This document shows positions 3,328 through 35,320 of a stretch of 36,737 nt of DNA, piece after piece. Position 1 is the stretch's first letter, and each line of letters opens with the position of its first letter. Both the position numbers and the translations under genes were made by a program. Under the pieces are notes generated by a model that worked only from the letters and a program-made list of their open reading frames with translations, was not told the DNA's origin and made no database searches. The stretch is from Candidatus Gastranaerophilales bacterium. Lineage in GTDB: Bacteria; Cyanobacteriota; Vampirovibrionia; Gastranaerophilales; Gastranaerophilaceae. The stretch lies in assembly GCA_905236775.1 (NCBI GenBank), contig CAJOOM010000076.1, positions 1 to 36,737 on the forward strand. The letters run 5' to 3'.

Positions 3328-3513
3328 TTAAAAACAATCGTAAAATATGTTATAATATAATAAGTAAACGAATATGAGAATTAATAAAAATACTAATACA
3401 TTATATGTCTTGAAAAATTAAATTTTATTAAGATTTGTAAATCTAAAAATTCAATCTATAAGCGGGTTTAAGCCATACTTTACAAAAATTTACAAAAAAT
3501 TATTATATGAAAT

Positions 3514-3540
3514 TAAAGTTTTTAAAAATTTTGCCGATAT
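3514..3540 (+). promoter_or_regulatory. Sigma28 (FliA)-type promoter
   Basis: TAAAGTTT (3514-3521), 11-nt spacer, GCCGATAT (3533-3540); fits the sigma28 consensus TAAAGTTT-N11-GCCGATAA. Confidence 0.8.
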
Positions 3541-3575: not shown

Positions 3576-3740
3576 ATGCAAAATAGTATAAGCGGTAATC
3601 TAAAAAATTATGACAATTTTATGTTTAACTTTAGAAATGAAACAACTGAAAGAGCAATAAAAGAAGAGTCTTCTGTAAAGAGATGTACTTTAGCTTATGA
3701 ATTTATATTAGATAATAGTGAATTGCAGAATATTAAGTAA
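3576..3740 (+). CDS. Small orphan protein, 54 aa (MQNSISGNLKNYDNFMFNFRNETTERAIKEESSVKRCTLAYEFILDNSELQNIK)
   Basis: ATG preceded by AAGGAGT; not in supplied ORF track; first gene after the sigma28-type promoter. Confidence 0.65.
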   Translation: MQNSISGNLKNYDNFMFNFRNETTERAIKEESSVKRCTLAYEFILDNSELQNIK

Positions 3741-19750: not shown

Positions 19751-19820
19751 ACATATATATAAAGTAATTTTTTTCAAAAAAATTGCCTTTTTTATGTTAT
19801 TTTTAGTAAAATTTTTACAA
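19751..19820 (-). promoter_or_regulatory. Promoter-like module S1
   Basis: Minus strand: TTGTAAAAATTTTACTAAAAATAACATAAAAAAGGCAATTTTTTTGAAAAAAATTACTTTATATATATGT. Confidence 0.55.
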
Positions 19821-19857: not shown

Positions 19858-21150
19858 TTAATTAAGATTTAACAATGTCAAGATTAATCTTTTAAACTTA
19901 CTTAATCTTATCGGCTGTTGTGATGATTCATTAGTATTAACATCCATTAGTCGGTTTGTTTTACTTGCAGCTTGACCTTTTATTTTCAAAGCTTTTTCTA
20001 AGAATTCTACAGTAAATGGATGTTTTGTTTTTAATTCAGAATCTGGAACATCTTTAAGTGATGCTTTAAACATATTTGCAGCCTCTTGAACAATTAAAGC
20101 AATTTCACCGTTTGAATATCCTTCTTTTTGAAGTTTATCCGCAAATTTATCTGCTGCTTTAGATTTTAAGAAATCAGTTTCTATAACTGCGCCTACTTCT
20201 TCTACATTTTTTAAGTACATTTCAAGTAAACCAGTAATTTGTTCTTTATCAGGAAGAGGAACTTCGATTTGTTTATTAAATCTTCTAAGAGCAATCTCAT
20301 CTACTTGTCCGTTTTTAGGGTGGTAATTAGAAGTAGCTACAAATGTAATATTTTTACATCTTCTTCTTAACGCATCAATACCTGTAAGAACCGCTGCTCT
20401 TGATTTATTAGCTTCCTCTGATGAATGTGCCTCATTTACCTTTTTGATTACCGCATCAAATTCATCAATACAAACTACTATCGGTCTATCCGGATTTTTG
20501 TTTGCCACCTCTTCAATGTTTTTAAATGTATTACTAATTCTCATACTTGCAGCATCCTTGAATGGCGAACCCATGTCAGGATATTTAATGCTGGTAAATA
20601 TAGCACCGATTTCTTGAGCAAATTGTTCTGCTACGTACGTTTTACCGGTACCTCCGTGTCCGTACAAGTATATAATATCTGTTCCGCTATCTTTCATTCC
20701 GCCCCATTTTTTTGCAGCGGCTGAAAGTTTTGTGCTATCTATTATGCTATTAAATGCTTCCTTTAATGCTTTTGAGGTTGTTGACGAATTAAGACGTGCA
20801 ACAGTACCCTTTTTGTCTTTAAAATCTAACCAATCAAGAGTTACTTCGGTAAGTTTTTTCATCTCTTCTTCTGCTTGGGATTTACCTTTATTTTTAATCA
20901 TGGAAAATATACTAAGTAATAATGAACCTACTAATCCTGCTCCAATTGCAACGGTTCCATAAGCACTAATCTTTTGTAGACGTTCTTGCTGCTTTTGTTT
21001 CTTTTGCATTTGATTTTGAACTGACATTAAATCTAATTCATCATCTTCATAAGGAATTATAGCCGGTTGAGGCTGACGAGTTGATGTATTAAAAGTTGAT
21101 TGAGTGGGCTTAGTATCAGCCTTAAAGTTAGTAGAGTTTATTGTTAACAT
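19858..21150 (-). CDS. AAA ATPase with single TM segment (AAA-1)
   Basis: Walker A GHGGTGKT, Walker B VVCIDEFD, TM AYGTVAIGAGLVGSLLLSIF. The ORF track starts at 21180, but a RBS (AAAGGAAAA) precedes the ATG at 21150 (MLTINSTNFK). Confidence 0.88.
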   Translation of the reverse strand: MLTINSTNFKADTKPTQSTFNTSTRQPQPAIIPYEDDELDLMSVQNQMQKKQKQQERLQKISAYGTVAIGAGLVGSLLLSIFSMIKNKGKSQAEEEMKKLTEVTLDWLDFKDKKGTVARLNSSTTSKALKEAFNSIIDSTKLSAAAKKWGGMKDSGTDIIYLYGHGGTGKTYVAEQFAQEIGAIFTSIKYPDMGSPFKDAASMRISNTFKNIEEVANKNPDRPIVVCIDEFDAVIKKVNEAHSSEEANKSRAAVLTGIDALRRRCKNITFVATSNYHPKNGQVDEIALRRFNKQIEVPLPDKEQITGLLEMYLKNVEEVGAVIETDFLKSKAADKFADKLQKEGYSNGEIALIVQEAANMFKASLKDVPDSELKTKHPFTVEFLEKALKIKGQAASKTNRLMDVNTNESSQQPIRLSKFKRLILTLLNLN

Positions 21151-21169
21151 TTGATTTTCCTTTTTGTTT

Positions 21170-22363
21170 TTAGATTGCACCTTGTTGTTTTGCTATAAAT
21201 TCCCAGAATTTTGCAATTAATGAATCATTTATTTGCGGAATAATATTCCCTCCTTTTGCACTGTCATCAATTCCTGATGCCCAGACTTCTTTTTTGTCGA
21301 TAGCTTTTTGAATATAATCTGCTGTCATTTGTTGAGACGTTGCATTTGCTTTATTACCTATATCTATCGTAAAATCAGAAGTTGCTGTTTCAACAATTTT
21401 TTCAATATCTCTATTTGAGCCTTTTTTATCAACAATTTGTTGAGCGAATTTTTCAAGAGCTTTTTTATCTTTTATTAAGTTGTCAGTTCCACCAAATCTA
21501 CTAAGCTGGAATGCAAAAGCACTTGCAGCTTCATTTTTAACCGGAAGTCCAAGTTCCATAATTACTGCTCTTCCAATCGATGCACTATCCATATTACCTG
21601 ATTCCGGTTTAACATTCGTAGTACCAATAATTGTAAGGTTTTTGCAATCTTTTACACTATCTAAACCATTTAAGAAAGCAGTTCTATTTTGCCCTAAATG
21701 TTGATTATTAGAGCCTAATTTATTTACATTATTTAATAATGAGTCCATTTCATTGAACACCAGAACATGTTGCTCATTTGGATTTTTATTAACCATTTTT
21801 TTAATTTCTTTAAACTTTTTGCTGATATTTACTGCTGTTTTACCTACATATTCAGAAGACAAATCAGAAAATTGAACTTCTCCGTATTTTGCATTAAGTT
21901 CTTTTGCCACTAATTGTGCGCTAAATGTTTTACCAGTACCGGTCGGACCATGAATTATCATAAATCGCGGAGGTGCTGCTTTTGTATATTCTGCAACTTC
22001 TTTTGGTACTTTAAGTATATTTACAAATCTTTCAATTGTTTCTTTAATTTTTGGATTTACACAATCATCCGTAAGAGCTGGCATTTTATCGCTTATCTTA
22101 TTAAAAACAGTTTTTGGTGCTCCTTTTCCTAAAAACATATATGCAGTTAAGCCAACACTTGTTAAAAGAGTACCCAAAACTCCAATTTGAACAGCTTGAT
22201 TTAATTTTCTATCTTTTTCAGCTTTTTTCTTTTGTTTTTCATATTCAGAAACAAAACTGTCTTTTTCATTGTTAGCATTTGGTTTTGTAACTGTAGATTT
22301 AAAGTTAACTAAACTATTATAATTAGTCGTTGGATAAGTATTTATTCCTTGTACTTTGTTCAT
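21170..22363 (-). CDS. AAA ATPase with single TM segment (AAA-2), Walker B Asp replaced by Asn
   Basis: Walker A GPTGTGKT, Walker B position VLVFNEMD, TM VQIGVLGTLLTSVGLTAYMFLG. Confidence 0.88.
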   Translation of the reverse strand: MNKVQGINTYPTTNYNSLVNFKSTVTKPNANNEKDSFVSEYEKQKKKAEKDRKLNQAVQIGVLGTLLTSVGLTAYMFLGKGAPKTVFNKISDKMPALTDDCVNPKIKETIERFVNILKVPKEVAEYTKAAPPRFMIIHGPTGTGKTFSAQLVAKELNAKYGEVQFSDLSSEYVGKTAVNISKKFKEIKKMVNKNPNEQHVLVFNEMDSLLNNVNKLGSNNQHLGQNRTAFLNGLDSVKDCKNLTIIGTTNVKPESGNMDSASIGRAVIMELGLPVKNEAASAFAFQLSRFGGTDNLIKDKKALEKFAQQIVDKKGSNRDIEKIVETATSDFTIDIGNKANATSQQMTADYIQKAIDKKEVWASGIDDSAKGGNIIPQINDSLIAKFWEFIAKQQGAI

Positions 22364-22395: not shown

Positions 22396-22463
22396 TAAAT
22401 ATAAAAACAAATTCTTATGAAAAATTGCCTTTTTTAACGACCTTTGTAAAGAATTGTAACAAT
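22396..22463 (-). promoter_or_regulatory. Promoter-like module S4 upstream of the AAA pair
   Basis: Minus strand: TTGTTACAATTCTTTACAAAGGTCGTTAAAAAAGGCAATTTTTCATAAGAATTTGTTTTTATAT. Confidence 0.5.
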
Positions 22464-22487: not shown

Positions 22488-22514
22488 TAAAGTTTTCAAA
22501 AAAAATGCCGATAT
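22488..22514 (+). promoter_or_regulatory. Sigma28 (FliA)-type promoter
   Basis: TAAAGTTT (22488-22495), 11-nt spacer, GCCGATAT (22507-22514). Confidence 0.8.
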
Positions 22515-22578: not shown

Positions 22579-23574
22579 ATGAGTTTAGGAGTCAATAACG
22601 TAACATTATTAACTTTAACTTCGCGAAAAGCTGATGTTGAATTAGGCATTTCGCTCGATGCGGCTGAAAAAATGGCTCTTACAAGACAACAAACTGAACT
22701 TACCAAGGAATATTATGCTCGTTTACAAGGAAAAAATATTACGTATTATGCTAATGGTCAATATAATGCAATGGACTATAATTACTTAATGGGAAATACA
22801 ACACTTGCTGCAACAGATATTATATCCGGTAATACTGCTAACATGAAAAAGGATTCTTCAATGGTATTAACCGATTCAAGCGGACTTGTTGTAATGAATG
22901 ATAGTTATGCAAGTATTTTAAAAACAGTTTTAGGTTCTTCTTGTTTAGATGCAAACGGTAGAGGAGGTACTTTTTCTCAAGATAAAATTCCTGCTCTCAT
23001 TGCTCAAGTTGCAGGAGCATATGCAACAGAAGAAGAAATTAAAAAAGTTATTGATGGTGGGAAACTTGAATCAAATTACAACGTTTCTGTTTTAAAAACA
23101 AAATCACAAGATGTTGTGGCTAATGGAGTTAGCCATGATAATACAGATGCTGTAACATCAAAAATAGAAGCTATTGTAAATTATTTTTATCCAATATTTA
23201 AAGCTGCTGCTGCAAATGGATGGACAACAGAATACAATAAAGAAATGGGAAATAATAAAAATTACATAAGTGATGCTTTAGTATCAGGAATCTTTAATCT
23301 AGAACAAATTGATATAGCAGGTCAATATTTGCCGGATGCATCATTATCATACTTTACAACCGCTGGATTAGTTACTGAAAGAACAGATTCAAGTGTGAGA
23401 GAGGCAATCACTGCTTGGTATAACTCCGAAAAAGATGCCATAAACGAAAAAGAAAGCTGGATTGATTTAGACATACAAGACTTATCTACCGAGCTTGAAG
23501 CTATAAATACAGAGATTCAATCAATAGAATCAATGAAAGAAGATGACTTAAAAGCTTTTGAATTTGCTTCTTAA
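22579..23574 (+). CDS. Hypothetical protein, 331 aa, C-terminal coiled coil
   Basis: ORF with RBS AAAGGAAAG, downstream of the sigma28-type promoter; C-terminal WIDLDIQDLSTELEAINTEIQSIESMKEDDLKAFEF. Confidence 0.85.
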   Translation: MSLGVNNVTLLTLTSRKADVELGISLDAAEKMALTRQQTELTKEYYARLQGKNITYYANGQYNAMDYNYLMGNTTLAATDIISGNTANMKKDSSMVLTDSSGLVVMNDSYASILKTVLGSSCLDANGRGGTFSQDKIPALIAQVAGAYATEEEIKKVIDGGKLESNYNVSVLKTKSQDVVANGVSHDNTDAVTSKIEAIVNYFYPIFKAAAANGWTTEYNKEMGNNKNYISDALVSGIFNLEQIDIAGQYLPDASLSYFTTAGLVTERTDSSVREAITAWYNSEKDAINEKESWIDLDIQDLSTELEAINTEIQSIESMKEDDLKAFEFAS

Positions 23575-25623: not shown

Positions 25624-26574
25624 TTATGTCCTGTTATATTGCCAAACTCCGGTATTTACAACATTATAGATTGCTGCAGCAATTGCTGCCCATTTAGCGA
25701 CTTTCATACCTTTCATAAAAGATATTTGTTTAGGGAATAACGTTTTCAAGGCTGTTGTTCCACCTAAAGTCAAACCGCCTCCTACCAAAGCTCCAGTTGT
25801 TGCAGCAGATGCCACTTCACCTACATATTCGGCTTTTTTCTTGCTGCCTGTATCATTTATGCCATTACCAAAGAGTTGGTTTAGAGTTTGTTCTGCATTT
25901 AATTTATTATGTCCGTGGTTACCTAACCAATAATTGTTCCATCCATGCTGGAATGAAGTTTCACCGAATGCTCTAATATCACTTCTCAAATCGGGTTTAA
26001 CACCATTTTGAAAATTCTTGCCAATTTCAGAATACATTATATTTATGTATTCATTCAAATTACTTGCTAAGTTTACACTGCCTTCCGGTGTATTAAGATA
26101 ATTGCTGTATTTATTTATAATTTCTTGTTTTAATTCATAGAATTTTTGGACAACGCTATCAGAATGACCTTGTCTAATTTCGTCATAAATATCTCTTATT
26201 CCTTTTTTAACAAAACCATCTGACATAACTTTTAATAAGAATGTTTGTTCATGGTCATTAAGATTTGCAACTTCAGCAAGCTGCTGTTTTCTGTGCATTT
26301 CTGTCGTATGGTCTAATCGTTGTTTTTCCAAATCTTCTTGGAATTTATTGTACTCTTTTAAGGCTTCCATCTGGGTTTGCATAAAAGTACCACCATACAT
26401 TCCCATTGCAGGATTATTCATCATCATAGCTGAAGAATAGTCTAACATAGGATTCATCATTCCATAACTTCCATAATTGCCATAACCGCTATACAAAGCA
26501 TAGGACATTGGGTCATAGTAAGAACCGAAGTTACATCCGAAGTTATCTATTGGTGATATGCTATTGTCTGGCAT
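25624..26574 (-). CDS. Hypothetical protein, 316 aa, Tyr/Gly/Met-rich N-terminus and C-terminal hydrophobic segments
   Basis: RBS AGGAGG; N-terminus YSGYGNYGSYGMMNPMLDYSSAMMMNNPAMGMYGG. Confidence 0.85.
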   Translation of the reverse strand: MPDNSISPIDNFGCNFGSYYDPMSYALYSGYGNYGSYGMMNPMLDYSSAMMMNNPAMGMYGGTFMQTQMEALKEYNKFQEDLEKQRLDHTTEMHRKQQLAEVANLNDHEQTFLLKVMSDGFVKKGIRDIYDEIRQGHSDSVVQKFYELKQEIINKYSNYLNTPEGSVNLASNLNEYINIMYSEIGKNFQNGVKPDLRSDIRAFGETSFQHGWNNYWLGNHGHNKLNAEQTLNQLFGNGINDTGSKKKAEYVGEVASAATTGALVGGGLTLGGTTALKTLFPKQISFMKGMKVAKWAAIAAAIYNVVNTGVWQYNRT

Positions 26575-26611: not shown

Positions 26612-26686
26612 CTTACACTTATATAAAGTATTTTATTTTTTAGAAATTGACTTTTTTTAACAATTTTGTAACAAAACTTTACAATT
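26612..26686 (-). promoter_or_regulatory. Promoter-like module S3 upstream of the 316-aa gene
   Basis: Minus strand: AATTGTAAAGTTTTGTTACAAAATTGTTAAAAAAAGTCAATTTCTAAAAAATAAAATACTTTATATAAGTGTAAGG. Confidence 0.55.
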
Positions 26687-35023: not shown

Positions 35024-35090
35024 GTTACAAAACTTAACAAAAAAACAAAAAAAAGGCAATTTCTGAAAAGAAAAATACTTTATATATATA
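35024..35090 (+). promoter_or_regulatory. Promoter-like module S2 upstream of the 67-aa gene
   Basis: GTTACAAAACTTAACAAAAAAACAAAAAAAAGGCAATTTCTGAAAAGAAAAATACTTTATATATATA. Confidence 0.55.
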
Positions 35091-35116: not shown

Positions 35117-35320
35117 ATGAAAGAAGAAGAACTAAATGCAACAATGTCAGTAATCGCCGATCCAATCAATAATGTATATAAATTAGATTCAAGACAAGCA
35201 ATAGATGAGATACAAAGAATTTGCAGAATTTTTGCTATTTCAGAAAAGCAAGCAAACAAACATAAAATGTTGTCGATTAAAAATTTAGCTACATTCCGAT
35301 TAGTTTTGAGTAACAACTAG
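35117..35320 (+). CDS. Small hypothetical protein, 67 aa
   Basis: RBS AAGGAG, upstream module S2, downstream terminator. Confidence 0.8.
   Translation: MKEEELNATMSVIADPINNVYKLDSRQAIDEIQRICRIFAISEKQANKHKMLSIKNLATFRLVLSNN

Follow-up and report, generated by a model that had tools for sequence, protein, structure and literature searches.

The window analyzed here is the whole stretch of 36,737 nucleotides (G+C 31%), one contig of the 2.1-Mb genome, in 181 contigs, of a member of the Gastranaerophilales. The first-pass annotation had noticed four promoter-like modules in it, S1 to S4, and all four are found exactly where it placed them. Their GGCAATTT (GTCAATTT in S3) is separated from ACTTTATAT (TTTTTATAT in S4) by exactly 14 nt in 4/4 sites. 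In S2 (forward strand), the first G of GGCAATTT is at 35055. The profile of the 73 sites described below delimits a proposed -35 element, GGCAATTTCT (35055..35064), with an A-tract before it, and a proposed -10 region, TACTTTATATATATA (35076..35090). A direct repeat, GTTACAAAACTTAACAAA (35024..35041, forward strand), lies upstream at offset -31, with one mismatch to the HLR1 consensus KTTACAWW-N2-KTTACAWW, and is kept upstream of orthologs in three other species. The target gene (35117..35320, forward strand) encodes a 67-aa protein without Pfam match, whose orthologs in other species are 85-93% identical and lie behind the same promoter. Its predicted structure is all-helical, at low confidence (pLDDT 59).

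The other three sites are on the reverse strand, where their cores were located by sequence and PWM. The core of S4, GGCAATTT-N14-TTTTTATAT, spans 22399..22429 (first G at 22429) and faces the gene of a 397-aa AAA ATPase (21170..22363, reverse strand), followed by that of a second AAA protein (19858-21180). Upstream of this core is a perfect HLR1, GTTACAATTCTTTACAAA (22443..22460, reverse strand). S3, GTCAATTT-N14-ACTTTATAT, spans 26621..26651 (first G at 26651) and has an HLR1-like repeat in reverse orientation, ATTGTAAAGTTTTGTTAC (26668..26685, reverse strand; one mismatch, offset -34); its target encodes a 316-aa protein without Pfam match (25624..26574, reverse strand). S2, S3, and S4 had been described as oriented toward gene starts, and start codons indeed lie 25, 40, and 29 nt past their predicted transcription starts. 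The TTACAAA boxes attributed to all four modules hold for these three (0-1 mismatch to HLR1) but are weak in S1 (3 mismatches), whose core, GGCAATTT-N14-ACTTTATAT, spans 19757..19787 (first G at 19787). No convincing ORF was found downstream of S1, and no RNA element was identified by Rfam anywhere in the window. S1 is nevertheless among the highest-scoring sites and heads toward the 3' end of glnA; a small RNA may start there, or the site may be a relic.

The pattern GCAATTT-N{8,22}-TTTATAT has 71 matches in the whole genome versus 2 for the reversed pattern. A single identical spacing, out of the 15 allowed, accounts for 60 of the 71 pairs. Hence, the constant spacing stands as the argument against AT-rich coincidence that it had been taken for. 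Two genome scans were merged and two spurious matches removed, resulting in 73 curated sites. The PWM built genome-wide picks exactly the four modules in the window (scores of 53.4, 50.0, 46.2, and 36.9), where nothing else scores above 6. Scores across the set have a minimum of 22.9 and a median of 41, clear of the background, and S2 has the highest of all. In the 73-site profile, conservation extends outside the selection pattern: an A-tract precedes the G, YT follows GGCAATTT, TA precedes CTTTATA, and ATATA comes after it. The consensus core of the 73 sites is GGCAATTTYT-N11-TACTTTATATATA. Its -10 comes in two forms, ATACTTTATAT, the majority in this genome, and TTGTTTTTATAT, and the first base of the box is C in most sites. 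The four sites very probably act as true gene switches and belong to a set of around 73 members.

In 57 of the 73 sites a start codon is found 19-60 nt past the predicted transcription start. The first-pass annotation had staked its idea on an enrichment upstream of genes, and the idea survived a stricter comparison: a start codon with a Shine-Dalgarno sequence follows 51/73 sites, versus 5% of the positions in the window overall and 13% of those that are AT-rich. Most of the target proteins have no Pfam match. The few matches among 64 target proteins are to HEAT repeats, CopG-type RHH, M16 peptidase, AAA, GH108 lysozyme, and TPS domains. A flagellar or phage theme for the GGCAATTT regulon was rejected, as these 64 proteins give only scattered Pfam/PHROGs matches. 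A short motif, F[KR][GA], is present in the first 60 residues of 9/50 regulon proteins versus 2/83 other ORFs of the same loci, for example in the proteins encoded at 21170-22363 and 19858-21180 of the window. It could be a sorting signal or due to chance.

The pattern was then followed in other genomes. Raised counts of the motif are seen across the whole family and in those other families of its order that were tested; counts are low in other orders of the class. The TTGTTTTTATAT form prevails in several deeper families. At least 110 stretches with the core pattern are found in GTDB species genomes. Nearly all titled matches, among those listed, are MAGs named Gastranaerophilales, Melainabacteria, or 'Cyanobacteria', and a large number of further matches are rumen MAGs without a title. 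MAGs labelled 'Fusobacterium' (L248) and 'Acinetobacter' (L278) both carry an HLR1 with one mismatch, and L248 also a regulon-type gene, which suggests that they are probably mislabelled. As these loci were retrieved by the core pattern, the core is conserved in them by construction, which does not hold for HLR1 and the genes. Among the matches listed, the 109 sites of other species have a median leader length of 26 nt, and 29 of them have an HLR1 with at most one mismatch (0.3 in mononucleotide shuffles), at exactly -31 in 18 cases. Likewise, 39 of the 85 downstream proteins listed are homologous to regulon proteins of this genome, the 67-aa S2 protein included. With 73 sites, their placement before gene starts, and conservation across the order, the proposal of a promoter with a dedicated regulon is upheld. 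Exact copies of the core promoter were also seen in ten IMG/VR viral contigs (L322-L331).

RpaB is a light-response regulator of cyanobacteria. Its site there is HLR1, with the above consensus (PMC13421787), and the TTACAAA boxes match it. In the 80 nt upstream, 22/73 sites have a perfect HLR1 and 38/73 one with at most one mismatch; dinucleotide-preserving shuffles give expectations of 0.01 and 0.36. The 10-bp repeat period is the best among those tried for the boxes, and the HLR1 positions fall, in both orientations, on discrete steps 10-11 bp apart. Counted from the predicted transcription start, they span about -72 to -40, and activation by cyanobacterial RpaB uses an HLR1 at about -45 to -66 (PMC13421787). 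About 9 of the 73 sites, S1 included, have a poor match. The genome encodes an RpaB ortholog (NF045944.1, 354.2 bits for an NCBIfam equivalog cut-off of 330). It has three other OmpR-type regulators, of which the two tested are far below this cut-off; these three could bind the boxes instead of RpaB. The regulon had been called new, which appears right for the core promoter and the gene set, but the activator box matches a cyanobacterial site.

The same boxes occur in front of a second promoter class. The HLR1 scan gave at least 100 perfect copies in the genome, and many of them, among the matches listed, precede TAAAGTTT-N11-GCCG[AT]TA, a textbook sigma-28 promoter. The spacing is 11 in 12 of the 13 matches of this type, in agreement with the sigma-28 (FliA) consensus TAAAGTTT-N11-GCCGATAA (PMC2859248), and the genome has a FliA/WhiG-family gene (L096). 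One such site with HLR1 precedes the gene of FliD and another HLR1 that of FlgK, both confirmed by Pfam. In this class (loci L077, L079, L182, L198-L200, L204, L207-L209, and two in the window), HLR1 has fixed offsets, mostly -35 or -45 from TAAAGTTT. Reverse-oriented boxes have the same offsets before GGCAATTT, and this is the best evidence in the sequence that GGCAATTT is in the -35 position. Two promoters of this class, both TAAAGTTT-N11-GCCGATA, are in the window. One (22488..22513, forward strand; HLR1 offset -45) points toward the gene of a 331-aa protein at 22579 and apparently has the HLR1 at 22443..22460 in common with the divergent S4. The other (3514..3539, forward strand) precedes a 54-aa ORF at 3576 and has a perfect HLR1, TTTACAAAAATTTACAAA (3479..3496, forward strand). 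In contrast with this class, which fits the sigma-28 consensus, the GGCAATTT class does not match it, in the -35 or in the -10. The arrangement resembles that of E. coli aer, which has a sigma-28 promoter dependent on activator binding at a fixed position on the helix. Here too, a helix-phased activator would sit beside an alternative-sigma promoter, but it would be of OmpR type, versus CRP at aer.

The annotation had proposed a sigma factor or an activator. The sequence suggests, but does not prove, both: an OmpR-family activator at the boxes and an alternative sigma factor at the core. We think it reasonably probable that an alternative sigma factor uses the sites as promoters and that a response regulator of the OmpR type activates them; this regulator is most likely the RpaB ortholog, an assignment that we infer strongly. 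RpaB would bind HLR1, a direct repeat of 10-bp period whose few fixed helical positions lie immediately upstream of the core, and would activate rather than repress. A polymerase with a non-housekeeping sigma factor would read GGCAATTTYT as the -35 and TACTTTATATATA (or TTGTTTTTATATATA) as the -10, and transcription would begin roughly 25-30 nt ahead of the start codon. Some 73 genes, few of them with a known function, would make up the regulon, and the same boxes would serve the sigma-28-type class, including flagellar late genes.

Which sigma factor might read the core? Eight sigma genes of the genome are above the family cut-off: SigA, two of group 2 (L090, L091), one RpoS-like (L092), one SigF-like (L093), one FliA/WhiG (L096), and two ECF (L094, L095). 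A tree of the sigma factors of this genome, two more of the order, and two outgroups places L090, L091, L092, and L094 in clades restricted to the order. The PWM found no copy of the promoter at any sigma gene, so the usual autoregulation of alternative sigma factors is not seen. Two of the factors are made unlikely by absence, which is not proof in draft genomes. The ECF factor L094 has no ortholog in G176 (a draft that keeps the motif), seems to be broken into two frames in G118, and lacks a site at its own gene. L092 is missing from three drafts in which the motif is retained. An HLR1-like repeat and a conserved but different promoter were seen upstream of the L092-type gene (L092 1150-1260, L134, L136); hence, RpaB may also control this sigma factor. 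The sequence of SigF does not covary with the motif. The remaining candidates are L090, L091, and L093, and the distribution is best fitted by L090 and L091.

In an AT-rich genome, four sites that resemble each other might also arise by coincidence or from a dispersed repeat. Yet this explanation has a negligible probability: the reversed-pattern control gives 2 matches versus 71, the copies differ in spacer and flanks, and the sites are placed before start codons and conserved across the order, all of which contradict it. It is less far-fetched, though unlikely, that SigA reads the AT-rich -10 and that GGCAATTT is the site of a second DNA-binding protein, which together with RpaB would recruit the SigA polymerase. 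The TATATA stretch could pass for an imperfect -10, the spacing suits SigA too, and no dedicated sigma factor was found; yet the offset of GGCAATTT from HLR1 is that of the -35 box in the sigma-28-type class, and a TTGACA-like element is absent, the core differing from the SigA consensus TTGACA-N17-TATAAT.

For an alternative sigma factor at the core, group-2 sigma L090 or L091 is a possible though rather doubtful reader. Both are in 6/6 genomes of the order examined and 0/2 outgroup genomes, which matches the distribution of the motif but relies on two outgroup genomes only. In E. coli sigma-70, the effect of a T to C change at -12 is suppressed by T440I (PMC2613000). The residue of L091 at the equivalent position is V, I, or S, and C starts most -10 boxes, although the alignment of the -10 is uncertain, making this only a lead. 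Against both factors, their -35 recognition helices are near that of SigA, from which a -35 so unlike the usual one as GGCAATTT would not be expected. Reading by the SigF-type factor L093 appears improbable. SigF of Synechocystis recognizes type 3 promoters with TAGGC at -32 and GGTAA at -12 (PMC2758279). These promoters belong to an alternative-sigma class of the same phylum and share with the present ones (T/A)AGGC in the -35 box, here as WAGGC inside AAGGCAATTT, and a purine-rich stretch upstream; SigF orthologs are in every genome of the order examined. However, the core has TTTATAT in place of the GGTAA box. A SigF whose recognition helix is almost identical is encoded in an outgroup genome that lacks the motif, and in this genome the helix of SigF has diverged while GGCAATTT has not.

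The activator and its box are known from cyanobacteria, while the core promoter, the host group, and the regulon appear to be new. Like the cyanobacterial RpaB regulon, the present one has an 18-bp direct-repeat box and an RpaB ortholog; the box is located just upstream of the core promoter, which may be where cyanobacterial RpaB activates, going by the predicted transcription start. In contrast, its host is non-photosynthetic, its core promoter is not of SigA type, and its targets are order-specific unknown proteins, plus flagellar genes via the sigma-28-type class. Homologs of RpaA, RpaB, and NblS were reported in Melainabacteria by Di Rienzi et al. 2013 (PMC3787301), who suggested another function without stating which one. 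Tentatively, with chances close to even, we propose that RpaB in this non-photosynthetic gut sister group is not a light regulator but a master activator of at least two alternative-sigma classes, sigma-28 and an undescribed order-specific one, GGCAATTTYT-N11-TACTTTATATATA, controlling flagellar late genes and many order-specific unknown proteins. The papers found in our literature search, which had most subscription journals outside its reach, do not include this promoter class. The presence of HLR1 at most sites hints at a role for RpaB in bacteria of the dark gut, and bears on the job it had before photosynthesis was gained or after it was lost. A concrete list of predicted targets with a binding site makes the role of RpaB in Melainabacteria directly testable. 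In addition, the promoter class and its box are a marker that groups dozens of gut-bacterial proteins of no known function, which are probably co-regulated.

Two further arrangements were observed. At L004, L027, L063, and L086, a tandem repeat of the pentanucleotide GAATA (AGAATAGAATAG...) takes the place of HLR1, and the promoters behind it are possibly phase-variable. At L188, L201, L202, and L206, a perfect or near-perfect HLR1 lies beside AATGTGTTA...GAAATATGGAACTAAG on the reverse strand, a third recurrent arrangement that may represent a further promoter class or a repeat.
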